28,809 nt of DNA from a bacterium (GTDB taxonomy: Bacteria; KSB1; UBA2214), in NCBI GenBank assembly GCA_029560815.1, contig JAKQKF010000138.1:1-28809 (forward strand), in the 5' to 3' direction. This document shows positions 2,177 through 28,063 of the stretch, piece after piece. The translations under genes and the position numbers were made by a program. Each line of letters opens with the position of its first letter. Within the stretch, counting starts at the first letter, position 1. The notes below the pieces were generated by a model. It ran no database searches, was not told the DNA's origin, and worked only from the letters and a program-made list of their open reading frames with translations.

Positions 2177-4027
2177 CTAGTCATTGGGATCGTTGACCGG
2201 CACGGAGAGGCCGGCCTCGGGCTTGACATAAACGAGGACAAGGCGGCAGGGTTGGTCTCCCTGGTTGAAAAAGGTGACCGCCTCCGCGGCCGCCGGAATG
2301 AGCATGGTCTCGAGATAGGCCAGCGAGGTGACACGGCCGTTGGCTGAACGCACCTCCACCCTCTCGCCCGCGACGAGATTGACGGCGAAGCCCCGCCCCT
2401 CGGTGAGCAGGGTATAGCGGGCGTCGAACTCGGCGCGCAGGACGACGTAAAAGGTCCAGGGCCGGTTGTAGAGCTCGTAGAGCCGGCTCTCCTCCGTCGC
2501 CTCGATCATCTCCGGCCGGGCGACCAGGTTTTTGCCCACCCAGCTCCCCCTGCGCTCAGAACGGATATTGGCAAAGCCGCGCTCGATGTTGATCGGCCGC
2601 AGCTTGCCCTCCAGATCCCGCCGCAGATAATCATAGATCTTCATGGTAAAGATATAGGGGGTGGCGCTGATCTCCAGCACCAGATTACCGCGGCCGCTGC
2701 AGTGGACGGTGCCGTTGGGGATAAAAAAGAGGTCGTGCGGCTGCGCGGGCTCGCTGTTGATCCAGGCCTCCACATCCAACTCCTCCTCCGCCGCCGCCGA
2801 ATGGAGCAGGGCCTTTTTGAATTCCTCCAGATCGGTATGCTCCTTTAGGCCGAGATAGACCCGGGCGCCGGGTTTGGCGTTCACGATGTAGTAGCACTCA
2901 TCCTGGGTGTAGGTCTCGCCGAACTCCTTTTTGATATAGTCCGGCCGGGGATGGACCTGGACGGAGAGGTTGCCGCCGTCGATGGTGTCAAGATAGTCGA
3001 AGCGGATCGGCCATTCGTAAATGAACTGCGCGGCCGCGCGCGGGCCGAGGATATTGCGGTTATGGGCGTACATAGAAAAGTCAAAGGAGCACTCGAGAAA
3101 GCGGCTGCCGCTGCGAAAGACAATGCCGTTCTCGGGAACGATCATCTCGAAGGACCAGGCGTAGTTGGGCTTGCTCTGGTCGAGGTTCATATGGCCCTTC
3201 ATGAACTGCCCGCCCCACGGTCCGGGGTAGAACCATGGCCGGACGCGAAAGGGCGACCGTGAGAGCTCTTCCAGCGCCTGCCGGAAAGCGGCGCCGGTCA
3301 TGAAGGCGGGATCGCCTTCGTCCTGGCCGTCAATGAAGAGTTCGATGCCGGGGAGAATATTCCGCTTCTGGCGGCTGAAGGCGGGCCACTCGACGAAATA
3401 GCAGCGTTTATAGAACTCTTCAAAATCAGCGGCGTTATGGCCGGTATTGCCGGCCTCTCCCGCCCTGAACTTTTCCTGGATGAGATCCTTGGGCATGTCG
3501 ATATACCAGAGTTCATCCTGGAGTTCGACCAGCGAGGCTCCGCTGCCGGCGATGATAGTGAGCCGGTCGGCCTTGTCGGCGCGGCGGATCGAGGCGGTGA
3601 TGCGCAGCTCCTCCACCTGGACCGGATCGAAGAAGATTTCCGGTCCGAAAGGCCAGTGTTTTCCGAAGAGGCGGTCCTCTCCGCCGAGGAATGGCCGGAG
3701 CGCGGCCTCGCGGGCGGCTGGATCGGCCAGGGCGGCGGCGAAGCGCAAAAGTTCGGGGCGAATATCCAGGCGCAGCAGTTCGGCCTGCAGGTTGGCGAGG
3801 AAAAGATCCCAGGCAACCCCCGGGAAACCTTCGATGACGAGCACGCGCAGCCCGTGCGGGATTTTTTGCGCGATCAGGCCGGCGAGTGCGGCATAGCCCT
3901 TGTTGATCTCCCCCTCTGCAAGGGGGAAAGAGGGCAGAGCGTCGTAACAGCCTTTCGGGTAGGATACAGCCTCGGCGGGCAGGGGGACTGCAAAAGGGGT
4001 CAACTCCCCATGGTCACTGTTCTTCAT
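2177..4027 (-). CDS. class I mannose-6-phosphate isomerase with N-terminal degenerate kinase-like domain
   Basis: A 616-residue protein, much longer than a single-domain isomerase. The C-terminal part (from about residue 265) is a type I phosphomannose isomerase cupin that interconverts mannose-6-P and fructose-6-P. The expected zinc ligands are present: Q357 and H359 in LSVQVHP, E377 in the DECYY segment, and H442 in IPNGTVHCSG. The N-terminal ~250 residues look like a nucleoside-kinase-like P-loop fold: VLVIEGFPG (62-70) is where a Walker A would be, but the following residues are V-A-W-D where GK(S/T) is needed, so nucleotide binding is doubtful. It is the last gene of the locus, 57 bp after the ROK kinase, which fits a sugar to sugar-6-P to fructose-6-P route. 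The isomerase call is firm; the role of the N-terminal domain is unknown. Confidence 0.88.
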   Translation of the reverse strand: MKNSDHGELTPFAVPLPAEAVSYPKGCYDALPSFPLAEGEINKGYAALAGLIAQKIPHGLRVLVIEGFPGVAWDLFLANLQAELLRLDIRPELLRFAAALADPAAREAALRPFLGGEDRLFGKHWPFGPEIFFDPVQVEELRITASIRRADKADRLTIIAGSGASLVELQDELWYIDMPKDLIQEKFRAGEAGNTGHNAADFEEFYKRCYFVEWPAFSRQKRNILPGIELFIDGQDEGDPAFMTGAAFRQALEELSRSPFRVRPWFYPGPWGGQFMKGHMNLDQSKPNYAWSFEMIVPENGIVFRSGSRFLECSFDFSMYAHNRNILGPRAAAQFIYEWPIRFDYLDTIDGGNLSVQVHPRPDYIKKEFGETYTQDECYYIVNAKPGARVYLGLKEHTDLEEFKKALLHSAAAEEELDVEAWINSEPAQPHDLFFIPNGTVHCSGRGNLVLEISATPYIFTMKIYDYLRRDLEGKLRPINIERGFANIRSERRGSWVGKNLVARPEMIEATEESRLYELYNRPWTFYVVLRAEFDARYTLLTEGRGFAVNLVAGERVEVRSANGRVTSLAYLETMLIPAAAEAVTFFNQGDQPCRLVLVYVKPEAGLSVPVNDPND

Positions 4028-4084
4028 TGCATTTTCCCGTTATATAAATATCGTAAAGGCCTGCTCTGCCGCCACCGTTTTCCC

Positions 4085-4984
4085 TCATTCATCGAGAAAG
4101 GCGGCGCCGAGGCAGGCGGCGCGGTCCTCAAGCAGGGCCGGCAGGATGCGCACATTGCCTTTGGGCACCATCCAGGCGCGGCGTTTGACGATCTCGAGCA
4201 GGCCGGGGATGATCTTTTCATGGCTCTTCATCAGCCCTCCGCCCATGACGACGGTGTTGACGCCATAGGCGTGCATGACGTTGATCACTCCGATGGCGAG
4301 GTTGTCGATGAATTCCTCCTTCACGGCGGCCCAGGCGGGACGGGCTTCAGCCCGCTCGAAGAAGGTCTTGAGCGGGATGGCCTCGGCCGCCAGTTCTGGA
4401 AAGGCGGCGAGGAGCCGCTTTTCAAAATTGACCGCCGAGCAGTAGAGTTCCAGGCAGCCCTTGAGTCCGCAAGGGCATTCCGGGCCGCTGCGGTCGATGC
4501 TCATGTGGCCGCCGAGGAGGCCGCTGGCTGGATTGCTGGAGCGGAAGAGGCGGCCGTCGATGACCGCGGCGCAGCCGACGCCGGTACCCAGGGTCATGGC
4601 GATGATCGAGGGGTAGCCCCGGCCGGCGCCGAACTTCCATTCGCCGAAGGCGTAGGCGCGGGCGTCGTTGTCGAAGGCGAAGGGCACCCGCAGCCTTTCA
4701 GCGAAGCGCGCGCGCAGGTCGATGCCGGCGAATTCATCGGCCGCGCCGACATCGTTGATCACCCCGCCGGCCTGGACATCGACCATCCCTTTCATGCCGA
4801 GGCCGCCGCGGGTCAGCTTTGCGCCAGCGGCGAAGCGGGCGGCGGCGGCGAGCAGGGCCTCCAGCAGCGCGCCCGTCGCAGCCAGATCGGCCACCCTCTC
4901 GACCGCAAATCGGCGTGTATTGCCCTCCTCATCGAAGAGGCCGAACTTGACATTGGTGCCGCCGAAATCGATGCCGATCCTCAT
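4085..4984 (-). CDS. ROK family sugar kinase (gluco-/mannokinase-like)
   Basis: A 299-residue cytoplasmic ROK kinase, probably phosphorylating a hexose at C6 with ATP. Seen: phosphate-1 loop DFGGTN (6-11), likely catalytic Asp107 in FDNDARA, phosphate-2 loop TLGTGVGC (131-138), and the ROK zinc site formed by H160 and the C-P-C-G-L-K-G-C cluster (C170, C172, C177). There is no N-terminal helix-turn-helix, so it is an enzyme and not a NagC-type repressor. Its ATG overlaps the stop of the upstream esterase by 4 nt, implying translational coupling. Located just before a mannose-6-phosphate isomerase, it is most simply a mannokinase or a broad hexokinase; specificity cannot be read from sequence alone. 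Confidence 0.9.
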   Translation of the reverse strand: MRIGIDFGGTNVKFGLFDEEGNTRRFAVERVADLAATGALLEALLAAAARFAAGAKLTRGGLGMKGMVDVQAGGVINDVGAADEFAGIDLRARFAERLRVPFAFDNDARAYAFGEWKFGAGRGYPSIIAMTLGTGVGCAAVIDGRLFRSSNPASGLLGGHMSIDRSGPECPCGLKGCLELYCSAVNFEKRLLAAFPELAAEAIPLKTFFERAEARPAWAAVKEEFIDNLAIGVINVMHAYGVNTVVMGGGLMKSHEKIIPGLLEIVKRRAWMVPKGNVRILPALLEDRAACLGAAFLDE

Positions 4985-6225
4985 CGCTTTTCCCCCGGGA
5001 AGAACCAGATCAGGGCGTCGATGAGGTGGCGCCGCCAGCTGCCCCAGGTATGGCCCTCGGGGTATTCGCGGTAGACGTACGCGTAGCCGGCCGCCCGGAG
5101 AACCTTTTCGAAGCGGCGGTTGCCCCCGGTAAAATTGGTCTCGGCGGCAGGAAGGAAGGAGGCGCCGACCTTCTCCTCGTAGGTCCCGACATCCACATAG
5201 AGACGGATGGGCTTTTTCGGTTGATCGCGGTAGAGCCCGATCAGGGAATCGCCCCGGAAGGAAACGTAGCCGGACTGGCTGTACCCGTTGCCGAAAATAT
5301 CCGGCCGCATGAAGGGGATGAAGGCGGAGATCAGCCCGCCGAACGAGTCTCCGGCCACCAGCCGCGCTGACGGAGAGGTGATGGTACGGTACTGCCCGTC
5401 GATAAAGGGGACGAGCTCATCGGCAAAAAAGCAGACATAGTCGCCGTTCATGCCGTACTCGGTCATGCGGTTGGGCATCCCGGGCTTGAAGCGGTTGGGG
5501 GGCGTGACGAAAACGGCGATCAGCGGCCGGACTGCGCCGGACGCGATGAGCTGGTCCAGCATCTGCGGCACCTGGGCGAACTCGACATAGTCGAGTCCAT
5601 CCTGCAGATAGAGTACGGTATAGTTTCCTCCGGCCTCATAGCCCGGCGGCAGATAGACGTGCAGGGTGTGGGGATAGCCGAGCGCCTGCGAGCCGATTTC
5701 ATGCACCTGGAGCTTGTCGGCGCCGCCCTTGCGGCCGCTGCGGTACTCCGCGAAGTAAGGGTGCTGCTCATAGCCGGGCATGGCCAGCTCCGAAAGCTCG
5801 CCGAAACCGTTGAGGGCCTTGGCGGGATTGAGCGGATCGACCGCCCAGAGGCTGTTGGCGCCGAAGAGGAACCAGTACTCGAGGCGGGCGCCGGCAGGGG
5901 CCGTGCCGCGCAGGTAAAAGAGATCAGTCCCCTCAACCCGCGTCATCCAGTCCGGTTGAGTCCAGTTATTCATATCGCCCAGGACCCCGACCGAATCTTT
6001 TTCCCCTTTGTAGATCAAAACCCAGGTGGTATCATCCGGGAAGATCGGATAGGCCGAAGGCTGCAGGCTCTGATAAAAGGTATCCGCCAGCTTCTGCTTT
6101 TCCGCCGGGCTGCCGGTCTTGCCGGCATCGGCGAGGAAGCGGTCGAAGGGAGAAAGCTCTTTCTTCTGCATGGGGCATCCCGCCATGGTTGCTGCGATCA
6201 GGAGTACAAAAATAGTTTTTCTCAT
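4981..6225 (-). CDS. lipoprotein esterase, CE1/esterase-D-like, with N-terminal CBM48-like domain
   Basis: A 414-residue exported alpha/beta-hydrolase. The signal peptide ends in a lipobox (MAGC, Cys17), predicting a lipid-anchored protein in the periplasm or on the surface. Residues ~60-150 form an Ig-like CBM48/E-set module with the typical GDMNNW motif. The hydrolase follows (about 170-410): nucleophile Ser294 in GDSFGG, a candidate acid Asp345, and His392 in EGHTWGSWR. This architecture matches feruloyl/acetyl esterase-like enzymes of glycan loci (compare IroE/Fes-like and CE1 families), so it probably removes ester substituents from the glycan or its breakdown products. It overlaps the ROK kinase by 4 nt and begins 8 bp after the glycosidase upstream. 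The natural ester is unknown. Confidence 0.85.
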   Translation of the reverse strand: MRKTIFVLLIAATMAGCPMQKKELSPFDRFLADAGKTGSPAEKQKLADTFYQSLQPSAYPIFPDDTTWVLIYKGEKDSVGVLGDMNNWTQPDWMTRVEGTDLFYLRGTAPAGARLEYWFLFGANSLWAVDPLNPAKALNGFGELSELAMPGYEQHPYFAEYRSGRKGGADKLQVHEIGSQALGYPHTLHVYLPPGYEAGGNYTVLYLQDGLDYVEFAQVPQMLDQLIASGAVRPLIAVFVTPPNRFKPGMPNRMTEYGMNGDYVCFFADELVPFIDGQYRTITSPSARLVAGDSFGGLISAFIPFMRPDIFGNGYSQSGYVSFRGDSLIGLYRDQPKKPIRLYVDVGTYEEKVGASFLPAAETNFTGGNRRFEKVLRAAGYAYVYREYPEGHTWGSWRRHLIDALIWFFPGEKR

Positions 6226-6232
6226 GCCGTGG

Positions 6233-8341
6233 TCACTTTATTCTGGTCAAGCCGTTGCGGGAGACGTTGAAAAGCTCATCCCGGTATCTGAGGTTGTGCA
6301 GTTCAGCGCCGGGGTCGAAACCGGCGAACTGCGGGGCGGCGCTGATGCCGTCGAATTTGGAGGCCCGGACGCCAAAGATCCCCTCAATGATGGTTGTGAG
6401 ATAACTGCCGCAGGAGGAGCAGGCCCAGTCCGAGCCGTAGGGCCATTCGTAAAAAACCTTGAGCGCCCCGCCGGATTCCGGGGGCATGGCGCTCTCGACG
6501 AAATGGCACTGGCCGAAAGGACCCTGATTGACCGAACGCGCCACCCCCTGGAGCCAGGGCAAGGCGATATCGGCACGGCCGATGCGGTAGAGGCCGGCGG
6601 CAGTGAGGGCCGGCCAGGCGGTATAGGCCCCGTTCCACTGATGATCCGGGCGGACGCTGAAGAGGGCGTTGGGGTCGCGGGGCGAGAGGGCGCGCATCCA
6701 GTGGGGGGTTTGAAGCTCTTCAATAAAAAAGCGCACCATCTCCTCTTGCTGCCGGGTGCTGAGGTCGCCGGCGAGGGTGGCGAGGGTGGTGATAAAATCG
6801 TAGCAGTGGCGCACCTCGACCAGGGCGCCGTCGGGGAAGCGGGCGTTCCAGTAGCCGCCTCCCTCCGTGTAAAGTTTCATAACCTCCTGCAGGAGCGCTT
6901 GCGCCTCCTCAAGACAGGCCCCGGCCGCGGGATCGTTGTAGCGGCGGTCGAGAATTTCGGCCAGGGTGCGCAGACCGTAGATATTGCCCGCATTGAGGCT
7001 GGCGACCTCATGGATGTAGGTGCTGACGCACTCGAGCAGGTTGTTGATGCCGCCGTAATCGGCGAGACCGGAGGGGGTTTTGAAACGGCGGTAGTTGAAG
7101 GCAAATTCGCGCAGATAGTCGATGACCTTGCGCGCCCCCGGCGCGGCCGGGCTTTCCCCTGCTGCCGGCGCACTCGCGGCGGATACACTCTCCAGCCAGG
7201 CGAAATCCCCGTTCCAGCGCAGATAGTCGTCGGCGAGCGAGATCAGGGCGTAATCGTTGACCGCGTACCAGGGGCCGACGGTCCCGCCATTGAGGTACTC
7301 GGTGCCGAAGTGGGAGTGGAGGTCGGTCCCCATCCAGAGCCCGATGTATTTGCGCAGGACGGCGGGATCGAGCAGGGCGTGGGCGCCCCCGCTGATGAAA
7401 TAGTCCCAGATGAAGGTGGTGGTCTGCCAGTAGCGCGGCATGAGGGTGTCGTAGGCGCGGCCATAGACCGAATGGGGATTGTCGCGGCGGAAATAGAGCA
7501 GCCCGAGGACGCAGGTATAGTAGAGTCGGGCGATCGCCTCATCCCGGGTGTGGAGGGTCGGCAGGAAACCCGAGTATTCGGAATTGCCGGGGGTAAAGGC
7601 GGCGGCGATCTGACGGTCCCAGGCCTCGCGGTGGACGGCGAAGAGGCGGCTGATCTGCTCGTTGGCCAGGGCATCGAACTGGCGGAAAGCCTCAGCGGGA
7701 CTCTCCGCGATGATATTGAAATACCAGAGAGTGACGGCGCCACCGGCGGGGATCTGCAGCCGTTTTTCGAGGCCGAATCCGTCGGCCCGGTCGGGCGCGG
7801 GATAGAGGCCCTGGAGGGAACAAGCCTGGCTGTGAAGCGCCTCAAAGAGCACGGCCCGTCGCGAGGGCTCGACGGTGACCCGATTGTCACCCTCGGAGGG
7901 AGGTATATAGGATTTGCCGGTCTCGCGGTTCTGTGTGACAGCGGCAGCGGTGCCGAATTTGATCGCCACCTCGCGTTCCGCTCCGCCGAGGTTGCGGATC
8001 TCGAGGCGCATAACCAGCGCGGTCCGGCCGAAGGGGAGGATCATCTCGGAGGTGAGTTGGAGTCCCTCATGTTCAGCCTCGCGCACGACGCGGTCGGGAT
8101 ACCAGGTGAATGCGATGGACTGGTTGTGCGCTGCGAAGTACCAGCCATCCAGAAAGAGCGAGGCGGTCACCTTGTCCCCGTTGGTGAAAGGGGGGAAATT
8201 GAGGCTGCGCACGCCGGTGATATCGAGATCCGCCTGGCAGACGCCCCAGAAATTGGTGATGCCCGGGGGACTGAAAATGTCGCCGAAGCGGTGGAGGAGC
8301 CGGTCGCTGCCGAGGGATTGGGAATCAGGGATCACGGGCAT
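6233..8341 (-). CDS. putative six-hairpin glycoside hydrolase (GH63/MGH-like), no signal peptide
   Basis: A 702-residue protein. The first ~250 residues are beta-rich, as in the N-terminal sandwich of many (alpha/alpha)6 glycosidases. The rest is helical, with TTTFIWDYF (Asp313 a candidate catalytic acid), NGGTVGPWYAVNDYALI, and a typical C-terminal segment (TTIIEGIFGVRAS) followed by a Pro-containing stretch. No signal peptide or lipobox is present, so it probably acts in the cytoplasm on imported oligosaccharides. An Ala/Pro-rich insert (about residues 386-404) looks like a flexible loop. It begins 6 bp after the propeller gene. The family assignment is by fold-like pattern only; GH63, GH37 and GH15-type relatives share it, and I cannot name the sugar cleaved. 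An AAGGA lies directly against the ATG, so the start is approximate. Confidence 0.7.
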   Translation of the reverse strand: MPVIPDSQSLGSDRLLHRFGDIFSPPGITNFWGVCQADLDITGVRSLNFPPFTNGDKVTASLFLDGWYFAAHNQSIAFTWYPDRVVREAEHEGLQLTSEMILPFGRTALVMRLEIRNLGGAEREVAIKFGTAAAVTQNRETGKSYIPPSEGDNRVTVEPSRRAVLFEALHSQACSLQGLYPAPDRADGFGLEKRLQIPAGGAVTLWYFNIIAESPAEAFRQFDALANEQISRLFAVHREAWDRQIAAAFTPGNSEYSGFLPTLHTRDEAIARLYYTCVLGLLYFRRDNPHSVYGRAYDTLMPRYWQTTTFIWDYFISGGAHALLDPAVLRKYIGLWMGTDLHSHFGTEYLNGGTVGPWYAVNDYALISLADDYLRWNGDFAWLESVSAASAPAAGESPAAPGARKVIDYLREFAFNYRRFKTPSGLADYGGINNLLECVSTYIHEVASLNAGNIYGLRTLAEILDRRYNDPAAGACLEEAQALLQEVMKLYTEGGGYWNARFPDGALVEVRHCYDFITTLATLAGDLSTRQQEEMVRFFIEELQTPHWMRALSPRDPNALFSVRPDHQWNGAYTAWPALTAAGLYRIGRADIALPWLQGVARSVNQGPFGQCHFVESAMPPESGGALKVFYEWPYGSDWACSSCGSYLTTIIEGIFGVRASKFDGISAAPQFAGFDPGAELHNLRYRDELFNVSRNGLTRIK

Positions 8342-8347
8342 TCCTTA

Positions 8348-9436
8348 TCAAGCCAAAGTTATTTCGAGGAGATGGGGATAATACTCTTCGAATTCGATAT
8401 AGGTGATATAGATAACACGGCCCCCCTCCCGCGCCAGCGCCGGGTGCTCCTTGCCCGCGTAGATGAGCTGGGGATAAGGCAGGCGGGCGGGATGGCTGCG
8501 GCGCACCTGATAAAGCTCCACCGGTGCGCTCCAGGGGCCCCAGGGTTCCGGGGCGGTGCGGGCGACGATCTTGCCCGAAAGGTCGAGGGAGTGAACCGCC
8601 AGATAGCACCCCAGCCAGGGGTTCCAGGAGACCGACTGCTCGTTGGGCATGCCGTCGAAGAGGGGCACGGCTTCACCGATCCGCGGCGACCAGGCCGGCC
8701 CCGCCTCGTCCGCCGGCGCCGGCGCGCAGAGATATTCATAACCATCCAGCCGGGCGATTTCTTGCCGCCGGACGCGGGCGAGATAGCAGCGCTGGACCAT
8801 GTCTTCTCCCTGCAGAACCCCGTAGAGATAGAGATAATCGCCCGCAGGGGCGAGGGCCGCCGAGGCGAAGTGGGGCTGCTCCGCCGGCCACCAGATGTCG
8901 CTGCCGCCATGGCGGAGGCGCGTGAAGGTCCAGTCGTGAGCATCCCCGGCGGCGACGCCGGAGCCGAGGATGCGAAAATTGACCGGAAAGATCCCCTCCT
9001 CCACGGTCTCGACCTTGACGAAAAAAAGATAGATCCGGTCATCGACCTCGATCCCGTGCAGGCACCATACCCGGATCCAGTCGGGGTCCTCCCCCCTTTC
9101 CAGCGGGATGAGGGGTTTGATCCCGCCACAGCCGTCGAGGAGATAACGGAATTCGCCGATGCCTGCGGGCCCCACCCGGGTGGAAGAGAGCAGACCGGTG
9201 TTGTTGATCATACGCTCGATCCCGGCCACCCCGCTCATATCCGCGTGGCCGACCGGCTTTCCGTCCGGGTACCAGATGCTCTCGCCCGGCCGGCGCGCCC
9301 CGATGAGGGTGTCCCCGAAGAACCAGAGCAGTCCCGCCCGGGTCGGGATGGAGTAGGCCCCGTCCTGCCCCACCATGCGGTGGGGGTTATTCGTGAACTG
9401 GGGGCCAAGGTCGTGTACCGAGGCAATTTTGATCAT
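8348..9436 (-). CDS. DUF4185/DUF5005-like five-bladed beta-propeller, cytoplasmic form
   Basis: A leaderless protein of about 362 residues. It looks like a GH43/GH183-type beta-propeller: GQDGAYSIP (near 25-33), LLWFFGDTLIG (38-48), INNTGLL (79-85), a central repeat of Tyr-Leu-rich blades, GPWSAPVELY, and AGKEHPAL near the end. The same ordered motifs occur in the lipoprotein at 13079-14974, so the two are paralogues. DUF4185 members include endo-D-arabinanases (GH183), which makes a glycosidase role plausible, but I cannot place catalytic residues with certainty. Two ATGs are available (9442 and 9436, MTMIK); I give the inner one, and the outer one is equally possible. It lies within a few bases of the GH38 stop (9447) and is clearly in the same transcript. 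Confidence 0.7.
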   Translation of the reverse strand: MIKIASVHDLGPQFTNNPHRMVGQDGAYSIPTRAGLLWFFGDTLIGARRPGESIWYPDGKPVGHADMSGVAGIERMINNTGLLSSTRVGPAGIGEFRYLLDGCGGIKPLIPLERGEDPDWIRVWCLHGIEVDDRIYLFFVKVETVEEGIFPVNFRILGSGVAAGDAHDWTFTRLRHGGSDIWWPAEQPHFASAALAPAGDYLYLYGVLQGEDMVQRCYLARVRRQEIARLDGYEYLCAPAPADEAGPAWSPRIGEAVPLFDGMPNEQSVSWNPWLGCYLAVHSLDLSGKIVARTAPEPWGPWSAPVELYQVRRSHPARLPYPQLIYAGKEHPALAREGGRVIYITYIEFEEYYPHLLEITLA

Positions 9437-9446
9437 GGTCATCAGC

Positions 9447-12400
9447 TCATGGCTTCTTTTCGATGCCGATGCGCATCAGGCCGTTGGCAGGAAGCGTGAG
9501 GGTGATCGCATTCGTTTGCACCGGCACAGTTCCGAGCGTGCAGCCGAGCAGGTCGAGTTCCGTGACCGCGGCCCCGGCCAGCCAGAGGGCCGACTGCAGG
9601 GTCACCACCTGGCCGGCCTCGGGATCGCTGTTTTGCAGCAGCAGTTCATAGCGGCCGTTCTCCTCCCCGGCGGGGCGCAGCGAGATGATCTTGACCCGGG
9701 GATTGGATGAGGTGAGGTACTGCTGCACCGGTTTCGCGCGGGTGTACCAGCTGCGGCGGGCCAGGGGCTCCGCGGCGGCCTCCCAGCCAAAGGCGGTGAT
9801 ATCGGCCTGCTGCGCATCGGCGGCGGCCAGATGGAAACGGAAAGTGAGGCGGCCCGAGTTCACCTCGTTGCGGTTCCACGATTCAGGAAAATTGTTGACC
9901 AGATTGGCGATGACGGTGCCGGCGTTGTTCAGGGTGTCGAGGGCGAAGACGCGGCAGTCGGGAGAGGCGAGCAGCAAAGTGCCCTCCGCCGTTTCCGCAC
10001 CGAGCGCCCGGCGGATGGAGAAAAAGGTATGGCCGACGCCGCTGAAGCGCTCCTCGAGGGTCGTCAGTCCGCCCAGGGTTTCGCAGCGAATCTCCCCCCC
10101 ACGGGCGTTGAAAGCGAAAGCGAGCCCGTACTCCTCGGTATGTTCGCTCTTTTGCAGCGCTTCCAGGTCGATCTCCACAGCGATGTCGATGCGGTTGAGG
10201 CCGCGCCACAGCCGGAAGGTAATGGTGCGATAGAGTGCTCCGGTGTAGCCCCGGCTGAGCTCTTCATAGACCGGATTTCTGGCGATACCGGGCTCACCGG
10301 CCCAGCCGGCGACGGGGGCGAAGGATTCGTTGAGCTGAAAGCGTTTGCGCAAGGGGAGAAACGAGGGCAAGGCCGCGGCGGGATCCATAAGGGGCCTGCC
10401 GGTGGCCGCGTCGAGGATCTCGATGCCCTTGCCGGTCGAACTGATGCGGTAATATTCATTTTCAATGGCGGGGCCCGAGGCCGCCGGCAGGGCGGCATGG
10501 CCGCGGGCCTGCACGGGCGCAGACCGGCCCTTTTCCGGCTGCGAGTGAGCGCGCTCTTTGCCGGCTGCCGCCCGGTTCTTCTCCGTCAGCGGGCCGGCGG
10601 CGGGCGCGGCCGGGGCCGGCCGGGTGACCAGCTCGAACTGGCGGCTGCCGATACCGGGCAGACCCCTGGCGAGGAAGGAGAGCCTCTCGCCGCTGCGATG
10701 GCCGGGGATTTCTGCACCGCTCGCCAGATCGATCACCGCATAGTCATTGGTGTCGGTGGCGGGAAAATCGATCTCCACCGGGGCTGACCGCTCCCAGGAG
10801 AGGGTATTGTAGACCATAATCCCGTGCGAGTCAAAGCTCTCCTTCGGAGCGGTGAGCCGGTAAAGCAGGCGTTCGCGGAGGGCGCGGGCGCGTTGGGCGG
10901 CGTTGCGGACGTGGTCGTCGCGCACGGCGTCGGTATAGAGGTTCTCTTCACGCGAGCCGAAGCCGTACTCGAGGCCGCTACCGTGGCCGGAAAAACCGAG
11001 CAGATCCTCGTAAACGGCATCGATCTCGCCGGCGCCGGTGCGGGTCTCGGGATGGATGGCTGCGGAGAGAGCGGCGAGGAGTTCGACCCCGGGCAGCTGG
11101 TTCTGCACTGCGCGGTAGCCGGTCATGCGCCGGGTTTCGCCCTGGTAGAGGATATCCCAGTCTGAGGTCCAGTCGCCGCGGCGGGTCTCGAGCAGGGCCG
11201 GGTTTTCGGCGCAAAGGGCGCGGCCGAAATCGTCGAGCGTGGCGATGACGAAGCGCGGCCAGGCGTAGAGGTTATTCCAGCGCAGGGCGTTTTCGTACTG
11301 CGCCAGGGCGATGCCGCTGTTGTCGGAGTAGGCCCCGCTGATGAGGATTTTGGTGAAAGGATAGTCGCGGCGCAGCAGGTTGTGCACGCGGTGCCAGATG
11401 CGGCAGGCGGTCGCCTCGGGTTCGCGTTCAAGCCCGTAGCGCGCCCCTTCAATGTAGGCCTCGGTCAGGTAGAGGAGCAGGGTGTCGCTGCTCGAGCCGG
11501 CCCAGTGGAAGACCTTGGGAAGGCTCTTCTGGAATTTATAGTCGGCGAAAAGCTCGTTGATACCGTCGGCCAGAAAGCGCACCCCGGCCTTGCGCAGATA
11601 CTGGGGCAGGGCCCAGGACTGGCCCGGCACATCGTTATAGACCGCGGCGAAATAGTCGAGGCCGTAGCGCCGTTTGTACTCGCCAGCGATGCGAAAGCTG
11701 GCGGCCATCTCCGCCTCGCTCACCCAGCCGGTGTAGGGATTGGAGTAGATGGGCGAGACCGCGATCCGCCCCGCCCTGATCAGGGCGATGAGGCGGGCAA
11801 AAGCCGCTTCCGAGCGCGCGCGGCGGTAGTTTTCTAGCAGCCACATGGTCTCGATGGTCCAGCGGAAGCTCGAGTCCGCTGCGCACTTTTCGACCGCCTG
11901 GTCAAGGGTCTGGAGCTGGCGTTCGATCACCACCGGCTGGGGGTTGGTATAGCCGATATCCATGTGGGTCAGGGGCATGAAATAGAGCTCGTATCTGGGG
12001 AGGGATTTCAGCTCCACCCTCTGGTTGAGGCTCTCCCCCGCCATTTCGAGCTCGGCCGGCACCTTGACCGGGGCCTCGACGGCCGGCAGATAGAGCTCGC
12101 GCTGGTTGGCCCCGAAAGCGATATCGTTGAGGGTGAATCGGACCTGAGCGTAGGGGATGGATATGACCGCCCGGGTTTTAGCCAGGCGGCCGGAATGGAT
12201 CTCGAGCAGATATTTCTGCACCAGTCCGCCCCGCTTCTTTTTATAGAAAAAGGTGGGCGTGAGCGCAAAGCTGGTCACGGGCTTGCCGGTCCCGACCAGC
12301 TGGCTGATGCCGGCCAGCGGGCTTTTACCCCGGCTGTCGAGGAGGCGGCAGTAAAAACCCCATTCGAAGCGGAGCGGGTCGAAAAAGTCGACCGCATGGT

Positions 12401-12953: not shown

Positions 12954-13021
12954 CGTTGGCTTTCATATTTTCAGATGATCGAAAACCGCAAACAGTGAGC
13001 GGCAGCTTGACGGGTTTCATC
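12937..13021. repeat. duplicated start-region sequence before the GH38 gene
   Basis: An 18-bp sequence, AGCTTGACCGGTTTCATC at 12937-12954 (covering the GH38 start codon, MKPVKL), recurs at 13004-13021 with a single change. The upstream copy also encodes ATG-AAA-CCC-GTC-AAG on the minus strand but in a different frame (67 bp away). It looks like a small local duplication of the gene's start. Confidence 0.7.
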
Positions 13022-13078
13022 AGAACCGGGTATTCCCCTGTCGGCCGTGCAGCCGCCTCCCCCTCACGTCGGGCCCGT

Positions 13079-15909: not shown

Positions 15910-15918
15910 AGTCGTCTT

Positions 15919-17730: not shown

Positions 17731-17787
17731 GGCATGCCCTTTTCGGTTAGCCTTTTTCTATTCACTACCATAACAAAACACAATTTT

Positions 17788-17971
17788 CGCGCAGATCCGC
17801 AGAGACGTCAAGCCCCGCCACCACTCCAAATAAATTTCTCACGGAGGCACAGAGACACAAAGAAAATTAAAAAACCTCTGCTATCTCTGCGGCTTTGCGG
17901 GAGTCTTGTTTTTTCCTCTTTGTGCCTCCGTGCCATGGTGAGATATATTTTTCTCTTTGCGTCTTGGCGCG
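17788..17971. repeat. 184-bp nested inverted repeat (MITE-like or structured intergenic element)
   Basis: An inner pair of arms, CACGGAGGCAC-AGAGACAC-AAAG (17840-17862) and CTTTGTGCCTCCGTG (17918-17932), are reverse complements apart from an 8-nt insertion. Outer arms contain GACGTCAAG (17804-17812) and CTTTGCGTC (17955-17963, reverse complement GACGCAAAG). The centre has CTCTGCTATCTCTGC and T/A runs. It lies inside the operon between the TonB receptor and the next gene, and is AT-richer than both. Similar words occur, from memory, as dispersed repeats in many environmental bacterial genomes. It may be mobile, or may act as an RNA hairpin tuning expression of downstream genes. Confidence 0.7.
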
Positions 17972-17978
17972 AGCTCAT

Positions 17979-20957
17979 CTAAAATAAATACTTCACCCCC
18001 ATGTAGATCCGCCGGGTCTCGAAATAGTTCTGCCAGCCGATATCATAGCCGTCGGCGTCCACGGTCGAGACCGTCCCGTTTTCGATAAATTTCTTGGTCG
18101 CTTCACTGTCGAAGAGGGCGTCGCCGTAGGAACGCAGGTTTTTACGATTGAAGAGGTTGGTGACGTTCAAATAGAACGAGGTCGCATGGCTGCCCCAGAG
18201 GGGAAACTGCTTCTCGATCTTGAGGTCAAAGGTATAGATGGCCGGAAAGCGGTAGTTGTTGTAGGTATCCGGCGAATCGGTGGCCTGCAGATAGGTGAAA
18301 GCCTGACCGCTGTAATAGTTGAAGAGCAGGCTCATGGTGCTCTCCCGGAAGATGCGGTCGACCAGGCGGGCGGAGTTGACCTTTGGATAGCGGGCATAGC
18401 TGTTGACGCGCAGGACGTGAGGCCGGGAGAAGCTCTTTTCGATCGGGATGCGCTTGTTGACATCGCTGTCCCAGGTGTAGGAAGTGTTGCCCTCGCCGTC
18501 GTAGCGGATGACGCCCGGGGTGGCGCGGCCTTCCGTGGCGCGGCTAAAGCTGTAGTTGACGTCGAAAAAGAGCACGTCGCTGAAGAGCGAATGGAGCGCC
18601 ACCTCAATGCCGCGTGAATCGCCATAGTCGCCTGCCAGGTAGGTCTGGTAGGAGGCGTTGGGCGTGGTGACCTCGTTGAAGGGATCCCAGCCGTAGATAT
18701 GGTGGTCGAAGAGGCCGATGCGCTCCTGGGTCTGGTCGAAGACATCCTTGTAATAGGCGACCAGGTCGATGACGGCGATGCCCTCAAAACTCTGTTTGAA
18801 ACCGGCTTCGAACTGGATGGTCTTCTGCGGCTTGAGGGGCTGGTTGGTGAATCCCACCACCCGCTCTGCGTCGCCGTCATTGGAGGGGATGTGGCGCTCT
18901 TCCCGGCCCTCGGCCGCGGCAGCCTCGCGCTCGGCAAGAATGTTCTTGACGATATACTCCGGCCGGAAATAGCCGATCTCGAAAGACTGGTCGAGCGGCG
19001 GCATCTGGTAATAGTGGCCGTAGTTGAAATGGAGCAGCGAGTTGTCGCTGATCGGAAAAGAGACCCCGAAGCGCGGGCTGATCATGTGAAAGGATTTGGC
19101 CGCCTGGCGCGGCTTGTCGAGCAGATTGTCGAAGGAGTATTTGACATGGCCGTTGGCATCGACCTGGTCCTTGTCCGGATCGAGCGCCGGATCGAACTCG
19201 GGATCGATGGCGAGGTTGTAGAGCGTGGTCGGAGCGAACCAGTTGATGTTGGGATCATAATAGTCGTAGCGCACGCCGACGTTGAGGATCATGGACTCGA
19301 ATTCCATCTTGTCCTGCAGGAAGAGGGCGGCCTGGACGGGATGATAGCTCTCCATCAATCCGCGGTTCAGCCAGAGCGACTTGTCGCGGCTGAAGGAGGG
19401 GACACGGAAGGTCTCCCGCTCGTCGTAGGTATTGTAACGCAATTCAAAACCGCTCTTGAGCAGGTTGTTGGTGTCGAACTGCCAGTTGACATTGCCCGTG
19501 AGCGAGAGATCGCCGGTGAGGATATCGTTGTAGAGGACCGGCGAATAGTTATCGAAAGGCTCCGATTCATAGCCATCAAAGCGGTGGAAGCCCCAGAGGG
19601 TCGGTTTCTGGCTGGCGCCGACCAGGGAGAAATCGCTGGGCTTCTCCTTGAAATGCGACCAGTAGGTGGCCAGCTTGAGTTCGTAGAAGAGCCGGTCGTT
19701 GAGAAACTGGGTAAAGCCGTAGTTGAGCAGCCAGGTATCGGTGTTGAGCAGCGAGCCCCAGCCGCGGTAATATTTGGCCTGATTGGTGAAATCGCCATTC
19801 TCCTGGAGCGTGGAATGGGCATCCTGGTTGTAAAAGCCCGTCAGCTTCATCTTGATGCTGCGGGGATTCCAGGCGAGGTTGAACATGACGTTGTTGGCAT
19901 CGCGCGCGTCGCGCGGACGAGGCAGGGTGTAGGCCTGCTTTCTCAGGTTGAGTGAGGTGAAAAAAGTGACCGGAGCGCCCTTGAGGCTGAAGAGCGGCCC
20001 GTCCAGGCTGAGGGCGGCGGTGTAATCAGGGATCTTGCGATAATCGTAGACCTGGGACTGGCGTGCGGCGGTCCACCAGCCGGGATCGAGGCTGCCGTCC
20101 GGCAGGGTGTTGTCGACGAACTCTTTCTGTTCTGCCCGGTCATAGAGATAGGGGCCGAAATGGTGCTGCCCGGCGAGACCGTAGCTGAAATCGGCGGAAC
20201 CGTGAAGGGCATCACCGCCCTCCCGGGTGACGATGCTGACCACGCCGGACTGGGCCTCGCTGTATTCGGCGGTAAAGCCGCCGGTCATCACCTGCACCTC
20301 CTTGATCGCCTGCATCGGCACATTGGTAAAGGCGCCGCCCCAGTCGGCGCGGCCCAGGAGCAGATTGCTCACACGTGCGCCATCGATGAACCACTTGACC
20401 TCGTCCTGGCTGCCGCCGCGGACCGAATAGCGGGTCTCGCCCTTGCCCGCCGAGCCGAGGCCGCCGGCGACCGGAATGGGATCGAGAAAGACGCCGGCCT
20501 GGACCATCAGCCCCTGCTTGGCGTCGCGCATCGGAATACGCGCGAACTCGGCGATGCCGATGTTCTGGATGCTGGCGGTGACGTCCTTCTGGATGACCGG
20601 GGCCTCCGCATAAACGGTCACCTCCTTGCCGAGGGCGATGGCCTCATCCACCATCCTCACCCGGAGAGTAGTAGTGAGATCGACCTTGACGACCACATTT
20701 TCAATGACCACACTCTGGCGGCCGATCATGCTCGCCCGGACCGTGTACGTGCCCGGCGGCACCTGGAGGATGAAAAACTCCCCATCCAGGCCGGCAGCGG
20801 CCCCGAGCGAGGTGCCCACCAGGACGACATTGGCCCCGGGAAGCGGGGCGCCGGTGTCGCGGTCGACGGCGATGCCTCTGATTTTACCGGTTGTGCCGGC
20901 CTGCAGTACTCCGGCCCCCGCCAGCAGGACGATCAGCAAGCCGCGTGCCCATTTCAT
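17979..20957 (-). CDS. TonB-dependent receptor with carboxypeptidase-regulatory-like N-terminal domain
   Basis: An outer-membrane active transporter of about 992 residues. After a signal peptide (MKWARGLLIVLLAGAGVLQAG) comes a carboxypeptidase-D-regulatory-like domain (GKIRGIAVDRDTGAPLPGANV ... GTYTVRASMIG), then the plug (YSVRGGSQDEVKWFIDGARV, MQAIKEVQVMTGGFTAEYSEAQSGVV), then a long beta-barrel with typical DVNYSFSRA and NVTNLFNRKNL strands and an aromatic C-terminus (YLF). I start at the ATG at 20957; a TTG at 20978 is also open, but GGAGG lies between them and the ATG gives a clean signal peptide. The gene begins 31 bp after the ABC permease, so it is in the same operon. No SusD-type partner gene is present. 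The ligand is presumably a glycan, from context. Confidence 0.9.
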   Translation of the reverse strand: MKWARGLLIVLLAGAGVLQAGTTGKIRGIAVDRDTGAPLPGANVVLVGTSLGAAAGLDGEFFILQVPPGTYTVRASMIGRQSVVIENVVVKVDLTTTLRVRMVDEAIALGKEVTVYAEAPVIQKDVTASIQNIGIAEFARIPMRDAKQGLMVQAGVFLDPIPVAGGLGSAGKGETRYSVRGGSQDEVKWFIDGARVSNLLLGRADWGGAFTNVPMQAIKEVQVMTGGFTAEYSEAQSGVVSIVTREGGDALHGSADFSYGLAGQHHFGPYLYDRAEQKEFVDNTLPDGSLDPGWWTAARQSQVYDYRKIPDYTAALSLDGPLFSLKGAPVTFFTSLNLRKQAYTLPRPRDARDANNVMFNLAWNPRSIKMKLTGFYNQDAHSTLQENGDFTNQAKYYRGWGSLLNTDTWLLNYGFTQFLNDRLFYELKLATYWSHFKEKPSDFSLVGASQKPTLWGFHRFDGYESEPFDNYSPVLYNDILTGDLSLTGNVNWQFDTNNLLKSGFELRYNTYDERETFRVPSFSRDKSLWLNRGLMESYHPVQAALFLQDKMEFESMILNVGVRYDYYDPNINWFAPTTLYNLAIDPEFDPALDPDKDQVDANGHVKYSFDNLLDKPRQAAKSFHMISPRFGVSFPISDNSLLHFNYGHYYQMPPLDQSFEIGYFRPEYIVKNILAEREAAAAEGREERHIPSNDGDAERVVGFTNQPLKPQKTIQFEAGFKQSFEGIAVIDLVAYYKDVFDQTQERIGLFDHHIYGWDPFNEVTTPNASYQTYLAGDYGDSRGIEVALHSLFSDVLFFDVNYSFSRATEGRATPGVIRYDGEGNTSYTWDSDVNKRIPIEKSFSRPHVLRVNSYARYPKVNSARLVDRIFRESTMSLLFNYYSGQAFTYLQATDSPDTYNNYRFPAIYTFDLKIEKQFPLWGSHATSFYLNVTNLFNRKNLRSYGDALFDSEATKKFIENGTVSTVDADGYDIGWQNYFETRRIYMGVKYLF

Positions 20958-20988
20958 TTTTCTCAAGTCCACCTCCAAAAAACAAGAG

Positions 20989-21813
20989 TTATTCCTTGAT
21001 CCCGCTCATTGTGAATCCCTGAATAAAATATTTCTGGAAAAGGAAGAACAGCAGAATCACCGGCAGCATCATCAGCACCGAAGCCGCCATCAGCACCGCC
21101 CACTCCGGCTGCTGCTGCCCGGCCAGCTGCCCGAGACCGAGCGCCAGGGTGCCTTTGGCTTTATCGGACAAATAGATCAGGGGCGTGAGAAAATCGTTCC
21201 AGGTGAACATAAAGGTCAGGATGGCCACCGTCGCCAGGGCGGGCTTGGCCAGGGGCAGTACGATTTTCCACCAGATCCCCGGCTCACTGCAGCCGTCGAT
21301 GCGGGCGGCGTCGAGCAGGCTCTTCGGAACGGTCATGAAGAACTGCCGCATGAGAAAAATATTAAAGGCTCCACCGCCCAGGAACATCGGCACCGTCAGG
21401 GGCTTGAAGGTGTTGAGCCAGCCCAGTTCCTTAAAGATGACAAAGACCGGAATCATGGTCACCTGCATCGGCAGCATCATCGTGGCGATGACCAGATAAA
21501 AAAGGTGGTCGCGGCCGGGCCAATCGATGCAGCCGAAGGCATAACCCACCAGCGAGCTGGAGAGTACCACCCCGATGACCGAGAGCAGAGTGATCAGCAC
21601 CGAATTCTGCAGATACTGCAGAAAGGGCATCTTTTGGAAAAGCTTGTAATAGTTGTCGAGCTGGAACGAGCCCGGCAAAAAGCTGTTCGAAAAAACCTCA
21701 GCCTCCGGCTTGATGGAGGTCAGCAGCACCCACAAAAAAGGCAGGAGGAAAAAGAGGGCGATGATGGCCATGAGCAGAAAAACCAGATATTCGGTGCGTT
21801 TTTTGGTGGTCAT
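20989..21813 (-). CDS. ABC sugar transporter permease, MalG/UgpE-like
   Basis: A 274-residue inner-membrane protein with six predicted hydrophobic segments, the second permease of a CUT1-type carbohydrate importer. The EAA loop that docks the ATPase is seen as DAARIDGCSEPGIWWKIVLP. The ATG at 21813 overlaps the stop of the preceding permease (ATGA), and the protein then begins MTTKKRTEYLVF with a short basic tail, as usual; a longer frame reaching back to 21903 merely lies inside the upstream gene. It works with the permease and binding protein just upstream; the ATPase is not encoded here and is probably a shared MsmX/MalK-type subunit. Confidence 0.92.
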   Translation of the reverse strand: MTTKKRTEYLVFLLMAIIALFFLLPFLWVLLTSIKPEAEVFSNSFLPGSFQLDNYYKLFQKMPFLQYLQNSVLITLLSVIGVVLSSSLVGYAFGCIDWPGRDHLFYLVIATMMLPMQVTMIPVFVIFKELGWLNTFKPLTVPMFLGGGAFNIFLMRQFFMTVPKSLLDAARIDGCSEPGIWWKIVLPLAKPALATVAILTFMFTWNDFLTPLIYLSDKAKGTLALGLGQLAGQQQPEWAVLMAASVLMMLPVILLFFLFQKYFIQGFTMSGIKE

Positions 21814-22703
21814 TTGCCGGTCCCGCCGCTGTAATAGACCCATTTTTTGCTCACCCGGAACTGTATGAAGGTGATGATCCCCGCCAGCAGGAAGAGCAGC
21901 CATGCCAGGGCCGAGGCGTAGCCCATGTCGAAATCGTCAAAAGCCTTGTTATAGAGATAGAGATTGTAAAAGAGGGTCGAGTTGAGCGGCCCGCCCTTGG
22001 TCATGACGTAGGCTTCGACGAAGACCTGCAGGGAGCCGATGATCTCGAGGATGAACCAGAGAAAGAGCACCGGCGAGATGAAAGGCAAAGTGACATGACG
22101 GAACCGGTCCCACCAGTTGCCGCCGTCCATTTCGACCGCCTCGTAAAAATGGTCCGGTACACTCTGAATGGCCGCCAGGAAGACCAGCATACGGCCGCCG
22201 CCCAGAGACCAGACGCTCATCAGAATGATCGCCGGCTTGGACCAGCGTGGATCGATAAGCCAGAGCGGCCCCTGCAGCCCGAAGAACTGCAGGGAAGTGT
22301 TGATCAGCCCGTACTCGGGATTGAGCAGCCACATCCACAGCACCGACAGGATGACACCCGAGATGATCGAGGGGATAAAAAAGATGGTGCGAAAGAGCCT
22401 GACCCCGCGCGCCGCTTTGCTGACCAGCATCGCCAGCAGCAGCGAGCCGAGGATGACCAGAGGCGTGCGGATGCAGGTATAAAAAAGGGTGTTCCAGACA
22501 GATGCATAAAAATAGTGGTCCTCAAAGAGCAGTTCACGGTAATTCCGCAGCCCGATGAACTGGGGGATGCGCAGCACATCGTACTGGCAGAGGCTGTAAT
22601 AGAGGGACATGATCATGGGATAGAGGCCGAAGACCAGGAAACCGATGATCCAGGGCGAGACAAAAAGGTAGCCCCAGAGCGTATTTTTCTTCAGGGGTTT
22701 CAT
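21810..22703 (-). CDS. ABC sugar transporter permease, MalF/UgpA-like
   Basis: A CUT1-family permease of about 297 residues with six hydrophobic segments and the EAA loop EAVEMDGGNWWDRFRHVTLP. I take the ATG at 22703 (MKPLKKNTLWGY), because an AGGA lies 8 bp before it; an ATG at 22712 would add three residues but has no spaced ribosome-binding site. Pairs with the MalG-like permease, coupled through a 4-nt overlap, to form the membrane pore for the substrate delivered by the binding protein encoded upstream. Confidence 0.92.
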   Translation of the reverse strand: MKPLKKNTLWGYLFVSPWIIGFLVFGLYPMIMSLYYSLCQYDVLRIPQFIGLRNYRELLFEDHYFYASVWNTLFYTCIRTPLVILGSLLLAMLVSKAARGVRLFRTIFFIPSIISGVILSVLWMWLLNPEYGLINTSLQFFGLQGPLWLIDPRWSKPAIILMSVWSLGGGRMLVFLAAIQSVPDHFYEAVEMDGGNWWDRFRHVTLPFISPVLFLWFILEIIGSLQVFVEAYVMTKGGPLNSTLFYNLYLYNKAFDDFDMGYASALAWLLFLLAGIITFIQFRVSKKWVYYSGGTGK

Positions 22704-22738
22704 GCCGGCCATCCTGCGCCCTGCCGCGGCGAGGTGGT

Positions 22739-22782
22739 GAGCAGCTCTTGGGCTGCTGCGTTAGGCGTGATATGCGCTGCTC
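22739..22782 (-). other. intra-operon inverted repeat between binding protein and permease genes
   Basis: Plus-strand arms GAGCAGC (22739-22745) and GCTGCTC (22776-22782) can pair, and a nearer GCTGCT (22752-22757) gives an alternative 6-bp hairpin with a 6-nt loop. There is no U-tract, so it is not a classical terminator. A stem-loop after the binding-protein gene is typical of ABC operons, where it protects the upstream mRNA so that the binding protein is made in excess. Confidence 0.35.
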
Positions 22783-24120
22783 TCAATCGAAAAAATCCTC
22801 GGTCTTCATTCTGGCATTGACATAGGTATCGTATTCGAGTGCCCGGTCGAGAAAGGACTGAATGGTGTTTTCGGCCTGCTGCAGGGCTTGCCGCGGGGGC
22901 ATGACGCCCCGCAGCGAGCGCTCCCGCGCCAGGGAGAACTCGCGCCAAAAGATGTCATGGACCAGCGGCACGATCGACTTGGAGCGGCTCTGCTCCATCT
23001 GGCCGCTAAAGATGGCAACGTAGGGATTCATCGCCAGAAAGGTCGAGTCGTTCGCGGCCAGGCGGTTGACCGGGAAGAGGGTCTCCTCCCGGCTCATGCT
23101 CTCGGCCAGCTGGATCTCGCGGCTGACGACAAATTTCATAAAGGCCCAGGCGTCCCGCTTGTTTTTGGCTCCGCGCGGAATCGCCAGCCACCAGCTGCCC
23201 GCCGAGGAGACCGAGGGGGAATCGCCGAAAGTCGGGATCATCGCCACGCCGTAGTCAAGGCCGGGATGGTATTTTTCGATCTGGTCGATAAAGCTGTTGT
23301 CGTTGATGAAGAGGGCAACCTTTTCGGCGATGAAGCCATGCTGGTTGCCGTAACCAAATCCGCCCATAAAGGCGGAGACCTCCTCGACCGAATAGAGATC
23401 GAAAAAGTCGCGTTCCCACTGAAAGGCCTGCACCGCCACCGGATCGGTCAGGTTGATGCGGGTGCCGGCGGGATCGATAAAACGCGCGCCCAGTTCAAAA
23501 GCGATGATCAGGGGGGTCTCGATGGTGCCATACTGTGGGATGAAGCCCATGCGCACGATGCGGCCGTTTTCACGCTTCGTCAGCCGGCGCGAGTACTCGC
23601 GGATCTCCTGCCAGGTCGCAGGCGGCCTGCCGGGATCGAGGCCGGCCTCGCGCAGCAGCCGGCGGTTGTAAAAGAGGGCGTAGGAGCCGGTGTAGGCGGG
23701 CAGCGCGTAGGTCCGGCCGCGATATTTCATCTCCTCCCACAGGGAGGGAAAGAACTGGGCCGTGTCGAGGCGGTCCGCTGCGATGACCGCATCAAGGGCG
23801 ACCAGGGCATTGCGCGCCGCCCATTTGGGCACCGGGGTGACCAGATTGACCATATCAGGAGGGTCGCCGCTAAGGATGGCGGTGAGGACCTTTTTCTCGT
23901 GCTCATTCCAGGGGATTGGAATGCTGTTGACGTAAATGCTGTCCTGGGCCTGATTGAAAAGCGCGACGCAGGGTGGGCTGTCGTCCTTGACCCCGGCGAC
24001 GAACCAGTAATCGACCTGACGGCGTCCGGGTTGTCTGACCTCCCTGCCGGACCAGAAAAGCGCTATCATACAGGCAAAAAGGAAGACAATGCCGGCAATT
24101 TGGGCGGATTTTCTCATCAT
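22783..24120 (-). CDS. ABC transporter sugar-binding protein (family 1), probably membrane-anchored
   Basis: A 445-residue protein with the layout of family 1 extracellular solute-binding proteins: early PIPWNEHEKKVLTAILSGDPPDMVNL, central YALPAYTGSYALFYNRRLLREAGLDP (a diagnostic block), then GSWWLAIPRGAKNKRDAWAFMKFV and a helical C-terminus. It would capture oligosaccharides in the periplasm and hand them to the permeases. The N-terminus is hydrophobic (residues 8-24), but a cysteine at 17 is followed by further hydrophobic residues rather than a polar stretch, so an uncleaved membrane anchor is at least as likely as a lipoprotein. First gene of the locus; two adjacent ATGs are possible. GAAGG sits close to the first, favouring the second. 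Confidence 0.9.
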   Translation of the reverse strand: MMRKSAQIAGIVFLFACMIALFWSGREVRQPGRRQVDYWFVAGVKDDSPPCVALFNQAQDSIYVNSIPIPWNEHEKKVLTAILSGDPPDMVNLVTPVPKWAARNALVALDAVIAADRLDTAQFFPSLWEEMKYRGRTYALPAYTGSYALFYNRRLLREAGLDPGRPPATWQEIREYSRRLTKRENGRIVRMGFIPQYGTIETPLIIAFELGARFIDPAGTRINLTDPVAVQAFQWERDFFDLYSVEEVSAFMGGFGYGNQHGFIAEKVALFINDNSFIDQIEKYHPGLDYGVAMIPTFGDSPSVSSAGSWWLAIPRGAKNKRDAWAFMKFVVSREIQLAESMSREETLFPVNRLAANDSTFLAMNPYVAIFSGQMEQSRSKSIVPLVHDIFWREFSLARERSLRGVMPPRQALQQAENTIQSFLDRALEYDTYVNARMKTEDFFD

Positions 24121-24145
24121 ACCTTCGGGATGGGTAGTTAGTCAA

Positions 24146-27939: not shown

Positions 27940-28063
27940 GAATGATTCATTCCCTCCGCTCTTCAAACGCCGATGACAAACCGGTCGGAGAAAACGCAGC
28001 TCTCCCCTGCTCCGCCAGACCGGGCTGTGAAAAAGATAGAGATATTTTATGCCTCCAGCAAGG

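Follow-up and report, generated by a model that had tools for sequence, protein, structure and literature searches.

The closest described counterparts of the system reported here are the SusC/SusD loci of Bacteroidota, in which a TonB-dependent receptor with an N-terminal CarboxypepD_reg domain is encoded together with surface enzymes and co-directional enzyme genes, and in which SusD is a helical protein. Receptor-based sugar-uptake loci without SusD are known in Proteobacteria (Xanthomonas/Caulobacter type); to our knowledge, these have neither a partner with a type IX secretion system (T9SS) tail nor a PorV-family barrel. One or a few PorV/PorQ proteins are all that the canonical T9SS requires. 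As far as we know, SusD-free uptake of complex sugars is poorly described in bacteria of the Fibrobacteres-Chlorobi-Bacteroidetes (FCB) group outside the classical Bacteroidota. Here we analyzed a 28,809-nucleotide (nt) stretch of DNA from a bacterium of the KSB1 lineage (UBA2214; assembly GCA_029560815.1, contig JAKQKF010000138.1; hereafter the window), in which 13 consecutive minus-strand genes occupy positions 24120 to 2177. A first reading made without database searches (the sequence-only reading) had described this run as a glycan locus, and the list of open reading frames (ORFs) bears out its thirteen genes.

The run encodes, in order, the binding protein, MalF-like permease and MalG-like permease of a CUT1 ATP-binding cassette (ABC) importer, a TonB-dependent receptor, a protein that we call P5, a PorV-family barrel, a DUF4961 and DUF4185 protein with a T9SS tail, a glycoside hydrolase family 38 (GH38) protein, a DUF4185 protein, an MGH1-like hydrolase, an esterase, an ROK kinase and a phosphomannose isomerase (PMI)-like protein. 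It shares with the SusC/SusD loci the receptor with its CarboxypepD_reg domain, the surface enzymes and the co-directional enzyme genes, and with the Proteobacterial loci a receptor-based sugar uptake without SusD. Unlike the Bacteroidota loci, it lacks SusD, its receptor scores far below the SusC model cut-off, P5 is predicted to be mostly beta whereas SusD is helical, and the inner-membrane step belongs to a CUT1 importer. We class it as a new form of glycan-utilisation locus, and its receptor, P5 and PorV-family barrel form a recurring triad that is general beyond this locus.

Results

The triad consists of the genes for the receptor (positions 17979 to 20978, minus strand; PF00593, PF07715 and PF13620), P5 (15919 to 17730, minus strand) and the PorV/PorQ-family outer-membrane barrel (14971 to 15909, minus strand). 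Relatives of P5 are numerous in genomes of the phylum of KSB1 bacterium KLAP87 and of the class of genome G002, many of the matches being partial; the tallies of 80/82 and 190/197 genomes, respectively, contain many matches confined to the tail or the FN3-like domain and are not triad counts. The surroundings of two sets of 20 paralogs were inspected. In sample 1, hand-picked among the strong and middling matches listed (14 regions from KLAP87's phylum and 6 from G002's class), the order receptor-P5-PorV was found in 16 regions. Sample 2, also hand-picked, came entirely from one of the two lists of matches used for sample 1, from matches lying at least about 6 kb into their contigs; it showed the order in 18, the others being one receptor-PorV-P5 arrangement and one region cut by the contig end. 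Receptors split into two ORFs (L126 and L173) were counted as receptors. As controls, we took, among the matches listed, 20 T9SS-tail proteins that match the PorU tail only, from G001, G005, G018, G020 and G022 (three of these genomes also occur in sample 2), and none was flanked as in a triad, L186 and L190 lying just downstream of one. In all 20 proteins of sample 2, the match to a P5 profile built from 44 sequences (sample 1 and orthologs) spanned 0.92 or more of the profile's length, against 0.29 or less in those control proteins that matched at all. Tandem P5 paralogs occur in L132, L133 and L135; those of L132 and L135 follow a receptor-PorV pair.

The triad was also found when starting from the barrel. 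Among the 20 best-scoring of the 27 PorV-family genes over the cut-off in KLAP87, 13 close a triad (two of these, L220 and L224, also belong to the samples, as L179 and L123), and in 8 of the 13 the P5 protein matches the N-terminal part well. Three genomes carry 27, 24 and 14 PorV-family genes over the cut-off. The barrel compares with the PorV/PorQ attachment or shuttle proteins of the T9SS in scoring above the PorV_fam cut-off, and differs from them in its 14-27 genes per genome and in that 17 of the 20 examined in KLAP87 adjoin a receptor. Across 32 paralog triads, including L190 from the control regions, pairwise distances were correlated between P5 and receptor (0.957), P5 and PorV (0.916) and receptor and PorV (0.915; Mantel), values reached in 0 of 2000 permutations. 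P5 remains beside the receptor across paralogs with a median identity of about 25%.

P5 shares 55-81% identity with 32 aligned relatives; it has no Pfam family, no PHROG match and, by sequence, no useful match in the PDB. Its N-terminus resembles an export signal, and a predicted model with its fold matches gives a beta super-sandwich, an FN3-like domain and a T9SS-like tail. In a fold search with the model, the N-domain resembled the beta-sandwich found in cellobiose phosphorylase and in enzymes of family GH116. The model shows no (alpha/alpha)6 barrel, and P5 would therefore be without a catalytic domain of that kind. The PorV-family protein scores 165.6 on NF033709 (PorV_fam; cut-off 90) and falls under the PorV, PorQ and PorV2 equivalog cut-offs (canonical PorV NF033710, 46.7 of 250). 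The next protein (13079 to 14974, minus strand) has DUF4961 and DUF4185 domains (PF16328 and PF13810, above their cut-offs) and a C-terminal sorting domain (PF18962, 29.9 over 27; TIGR04183, 30.2 over 23). Of the proteins with T9SS-like tails and the PorV-like protein that the sequence-only reading had seen after the receptor, these two pass their family cut-offs; the tail of P5 is T9SS-like and lies under the curated cut-offs.

The receptor itself scores only 55.4 bits on the SusC model TIGR04056 (cut-off 368.25). No SusD family was found among the 13 proteins with Pfam, as anticipated, and PF07980, the only SusD Pfam model run on genomes, was not found in KLAP87, UBA2214 or G002. The idea that P5 is a disguised SusD was rejected on the absence of a SusD family in the locus and the mostly beta prediction for P5; the likeness is one of analogy only.

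A contig search with a 33-row P5 alignment gave 24 loci, whose records bear the names KSB1, Ignavibacteria, Bacteroidetes, Rhodothermales, Balneolaceae, Calditrichia, Caldithrix or simply bacterium. Of these loci, 23 have the receptor upstream of P5 and 22 have a PorV gene downstream, the exceptions being L023, a copy with internal stops, and L010, at a contig end. All 13 genes are collinear on a single contig in G192 (L108 and L109), IGN16 (L119 and L120) and Melioribacter FI88 (L003 and L146), and are spread over two contigs in KLAP87 (L001 and L206), each ending in part of PorV. G002 has 12 of the genes, with no MGH1-like gene seen. The Ignavibacteria loci hold one or two extra ORFs between GH38 and DUF4185 that match the DUF4961/T9-tail profile (two by Pfam), and in some Rhodothermota the triad and another GH38-like gene come first, followed by the ABC genes. 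Since gene order is conserved between phyla, the gene set is far more than chance. The sequence-only reading had named homologs never found together as the outcome that would tell against it, and the collinear genomes show them together. Its distinct locus type of a poorly cultured FCB lineage is distinct, conserved and SusD-less, and belongs to many lineages rather than one. Likewise, the mix of receptor, T9SS features and PorV that it saw as a mark of the locus is present, but the triad recurs within genomes beside other genes. One metagenome-assembled genome (SURF_24) contains two similar locus copies on separate contigs (L007 and L008).

In both the P5 and the receptor trees, two Ignavibacteriota (L002 and Melioribacter FI88) fall with the copies of the window and of KSB1 in a group with 100% support, apart from other Ignavibacteriota. 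This grouping suggests that the locus was transferred between phyla; an old duplication with loss could also account for the trees.

The importer comprises a substrate-binding protein (22783 to 24120, minus strand; PF01547, 111 bits, cut-off 26), a MalF/UgpA-type permease (21810 to 22712, minus strand; PF00528; 136.7 bits on the UgpA model, under its cut-off of 335) and a MalG/UgpE-type permease (20989 to 21813, minus strand; PF00528), whose ORF opens at 21903 and whose likely start, read from the ORF list, is the ATG at 21813. Pfam found no ATPase among the 13 proteins, and a MalK-type ATPase is absent from the window. A MalK gene directly follows the isomerase gene in L118, L120, L146 and L152 and stands one ORF later in L156; in IGN16, no OB_MalK gene other than that of the locus was found in the genome. 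KLAP87, which has a second GH38 gene and no MalK directly after the isomerase, and UBA2214 keep their single MalK elsewhere (L142 and L143), and so the window importer most likely depends on a MalK whose gene lies at another site. A single MalK-type gene was found in 18 of 23 related genomes. The importer called ATPase-less is so within the window, its ATPase gene probably lying elsewhere, as in KLAP87 and UBA2214. CUT1 importers with a shared ATPase (MsmX, MsmK) likewise consist of a binding protein and two permeases; the present family differs in that MalK directly follows the isomerase in several relatives. Stand-alone MalK genes in L142, L143, L147, L149, L153 and L158 are each preceded by an ORF of 426-430 amino acids (aa).

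In 7 of 9 examined loci, including those of KLAP87 and UBA2214, the binding-protein gene comes after a GntR/UTRA regulator gene, identified with Pfam on L004 and L009. All seven have the palindrome core ATGTNNGAACAT either at the annotated GntR start or upstream of it; L019 and L024, where an ORF of similar size does not match the regulator, lack it. The ORF list and a sequence search revealed neither the GntR gene nor its palindrome in the window. A promoter-like element, TTGCAT-N17-TAGGTTT (24145 to 24174, minus strand), is common to the window and two relatives: among 226 collected loci, TTGCWT-N17-TAGNTTT otherwise occurs only upstream of GntR in L003 and L021 and at an unrelated site in L149, and zero are expected in shuffles of the window. 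Another palindrome, GTTAG-N7-CTAAC, upstream of the window's binding-protein gene, was dropped, not being seen upstream of the relatives' GntR genes.

The GH38-type protein (9447 to 12953, minus strand), a divergent alpha-mannosidase with a signal-peptide-like N-terminus, has the N-terminal catalytic domain of the family (PF01074, 60.8 over 25). Its single sequence matched nothing in the PDB, and its profile found the alpha-mannosidase 2wyh (E 1.4e-4). Residues H330, D332 and D441 are invariant in six orthologs and, judging by GH38 motifs, may be the zinc ligands and nucleophile. The MGH1-like hydrolase (6233 to 8341, minus strand; no visible signal peptide) is assigned through PF22422 on relatives at 61-63% identity; it has no Pfam match of its own and no PDB match by sequence, alone or as a profile. 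The esterase-family protein (4981 to 6225, minus strand; PF00756, 119.8 over 22) has a lipoprotein-like N-terminus, as read from its translation. The ROK kinase (4085 to 4984, minus strand; PF00480, 157.7 over 22.9) matches glucokinases and ManNAc kinases in the PDB and falls short of the glucokinase subfamily TIGR00744 (113.9 of 260.35). The PMI-like protein (2177 to 4027, minus strand) is under the cut-off of the class I PMI equivalog TIGR00218 (19.3 of 116.2), and solved PMIs (1zx5 and 1qwr, E 7e-10) match it only over residues 256-483. Five orthologs align nearly over its full length, including the extra 250 or so N-terminal residues outside the PMI match.

The protein encoded at 8348 to 9442 (minus strand), without visible signal peptide, has the GH183 DUF4185 domain and fold and is 20% identical to EndoMA1 over the fold. 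D-arabinan clusters with GH183 contain DUF4185 genes, which in Microbacterium have a putative ABC transporter as a neighbor (PMC10115798, PMC10509167). This could point to D-arabinan as the substrate here, a reading that we consider unlikely. In comparison with those clusters, the window differs by its GH38, ROK and PMI-like genes and by having no GH172 (DUF2961) or GH116 among its Pfam matches; no D-arabinose-using gene was recognized in it, and its DUF4185 protein is divergent and looks cytoplasmic. The locus probably serves the use of a mannose-containing glycan: the genes on which this substrate had been proposed, GH38, ROK and PMI-like, are present, and the proposal was incomplete, given the GH183-fold protein.

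The run had also been called unbroken, with 4-nt overlaps. There are three such overlaps (MalF/MalG, if MalG starts at ATG 21813; 14971-14974; 4981-4984), but two larger gaps weaken the description, one of 248 nt between receptor and P5 (17731 to 17978, minus strand), which contains a hairpin (z -2.67), and one of 125 nt before GH38. A split into two or three transcription units, in which P5-PorV and the enzymes have a regulation separate from that of the importer and receptor, would fit these gaps and the position of the ABC genes after the triad in some Rhodothermota. The other joins are tight (4-70 nt gaps or 4-nt overlaps), however, and the receptor-P5 gap is only about 20 nt in L002, L003 and L021, which makes such a division quite improbable. 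Scans for sigma-70 promoters and terminators marked no clear internal breaks, and no RNA families (gathering threshold) or tRNAs were found. The spacer, some 230 nt longer than in these three relatives, resembles a repeat-type insertion.

A topoisomerase I (TopA) gene lies upstream of the locus. By TopA, the nearest among the 82 genomes of the phylum are KLAP87 (81% identity) and UBA2214 (80%), in neither of which TopA adjoins the locus. With the GntR gene and palindrome missing, the promoter-like element kept and the TopA neighbor different from these two, a relocation of the window's copy, or a trimming of it at both ends, is the simplest explanation. Downstream of the locus, GC content drops from about 60% to 42-43% around an AAA_14/DUF4143 ATPase gene (217 to 1527, plus strand), directly after the locus; this gene has no tblastn match (1e-10) among the 226 loci. 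Upstream of topoisomerase I is a GFO/IDH/MocA oxidoreductase (26941 to 28086, minus strand), whose membership in sugar metabolism is possible, not certain. An ORF running off the window end (28258 to 28809, plus strand) encodes a protein whose N-terminus resembles a signal peptide and which matched neither Pfam nor PHROGs.

Discussion

Gene content, conserved gene order, the recurrence of the triad and the predicted folds form the established part of this account. On this ground, we lean towards an outer-to-inner line of glycan uptake in which P5 has the role of SusD beside the receptor. At the surface, P5 and a PorV-family barrel dedicated to the system would act together with the TonB receptor. 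Directed by its C-terminal tail, P5 would leave by type IX secretion; anchored in the outer membrane through the barrel, it would present its carbohydrate-enzyme-type beta-sandwich above the receptor. A mannose-containing glycan would be trimmed by the exported GH38, DUF4961/DUF4185 and esterase proteins, and the CUT1 importer, powered by a MalK from elsewhere, would bring in the oligosaccharide. The GH183-fold and MGH1-like enzymes would then complete the breakdown in the cytoplasm, and the ROK kinase and isomerase-like enzyme may pass mannose to glycolysis.

Several points weigh against this scheme. Four of the 20 sample 1 regions depart from the order (two with receptor-PorV-P5, one in which an ORF separates receptor and P5, one with tandem P5 copies only). 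In KLAP87, 4 of the 20 PorV-family genes directly adjoin a receptor, with no intervening P5, and 3 have no receptor in view, and 5 of the 13 triads have long P5 forms (933-1215 aa) that match mainly in the FN3 and tail part. The T9SS-like tail of P5 passes no curated cut-off, its alignments to the PorU and PorZ model tails (E 6e-5 and 3e-3) both being under it. The agreement of triad distances shows joint inheritance, not contact. PF07980 occurs in 30/82 genomes of KLAP87's phylum and 47/197 of G002's class, so SusD and triad systems are not mutually exclusive. We infer, moreover, the export, anchoring and glycan binding of P5, the direction of flow and the identity of the sugar, and the window's own MalK, TonB and T9SS machinery is deduced from relatives.

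Some of these points would suit a P5 that is T9SS cargo like any other, possibly an enzyme that has degenerated, with the PorV-family protein as its shuttle only and the receptor working alone. PorV is named as a T9SS shuttle in a Cytophaga study (PMC8564354), and the predicted fold of the P5 N-domain is that of carbohydrate-active enzymes. The four KLAP87 barrels beside a receptor without P5 point the same way, as do two control T9SS-tail proteins with a receptor-like gene upstream (L194 directly, L189 one gene away) and no PorV after them. We nevertheless consider this explanation unlikely: the other T9SS-tail proteins, from five related genomes, are never flanked by receptor and PorV, P5 keeps its place beside the receptor at low identity between paralogs, and the missing barrel in its model argues against a catalytic domain of that type.

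If P5 does act with the receptor and the barrel, the triad may be, as we tentatively propose, a third general TonB-dependent nutrient gate, next to receptors acting alone and to SusC/SusD pairs. In it, the place of the lipid-anchored SusD would be taken by a beta-sandwich lid that is exported by the T9SS and held by PorV, and KSB1-type genomes would carry a dozen or more such gates for different substrates. A search at title and abstract level, with most subscription journals outside its coverage, found no prior description of a receptor-P5-PorV unit, which leaves its absence from the literature unproven. Should the parts be shown to work together, the triad would represent an outer-membrane gate of a new kind. 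It offers a gene signature and a testable mechanism, and ties type IX secretion to nutrient import; if true, many environmental genes now annotated as "hypothetical protein" would become readable as substrate-specific uptake gates.

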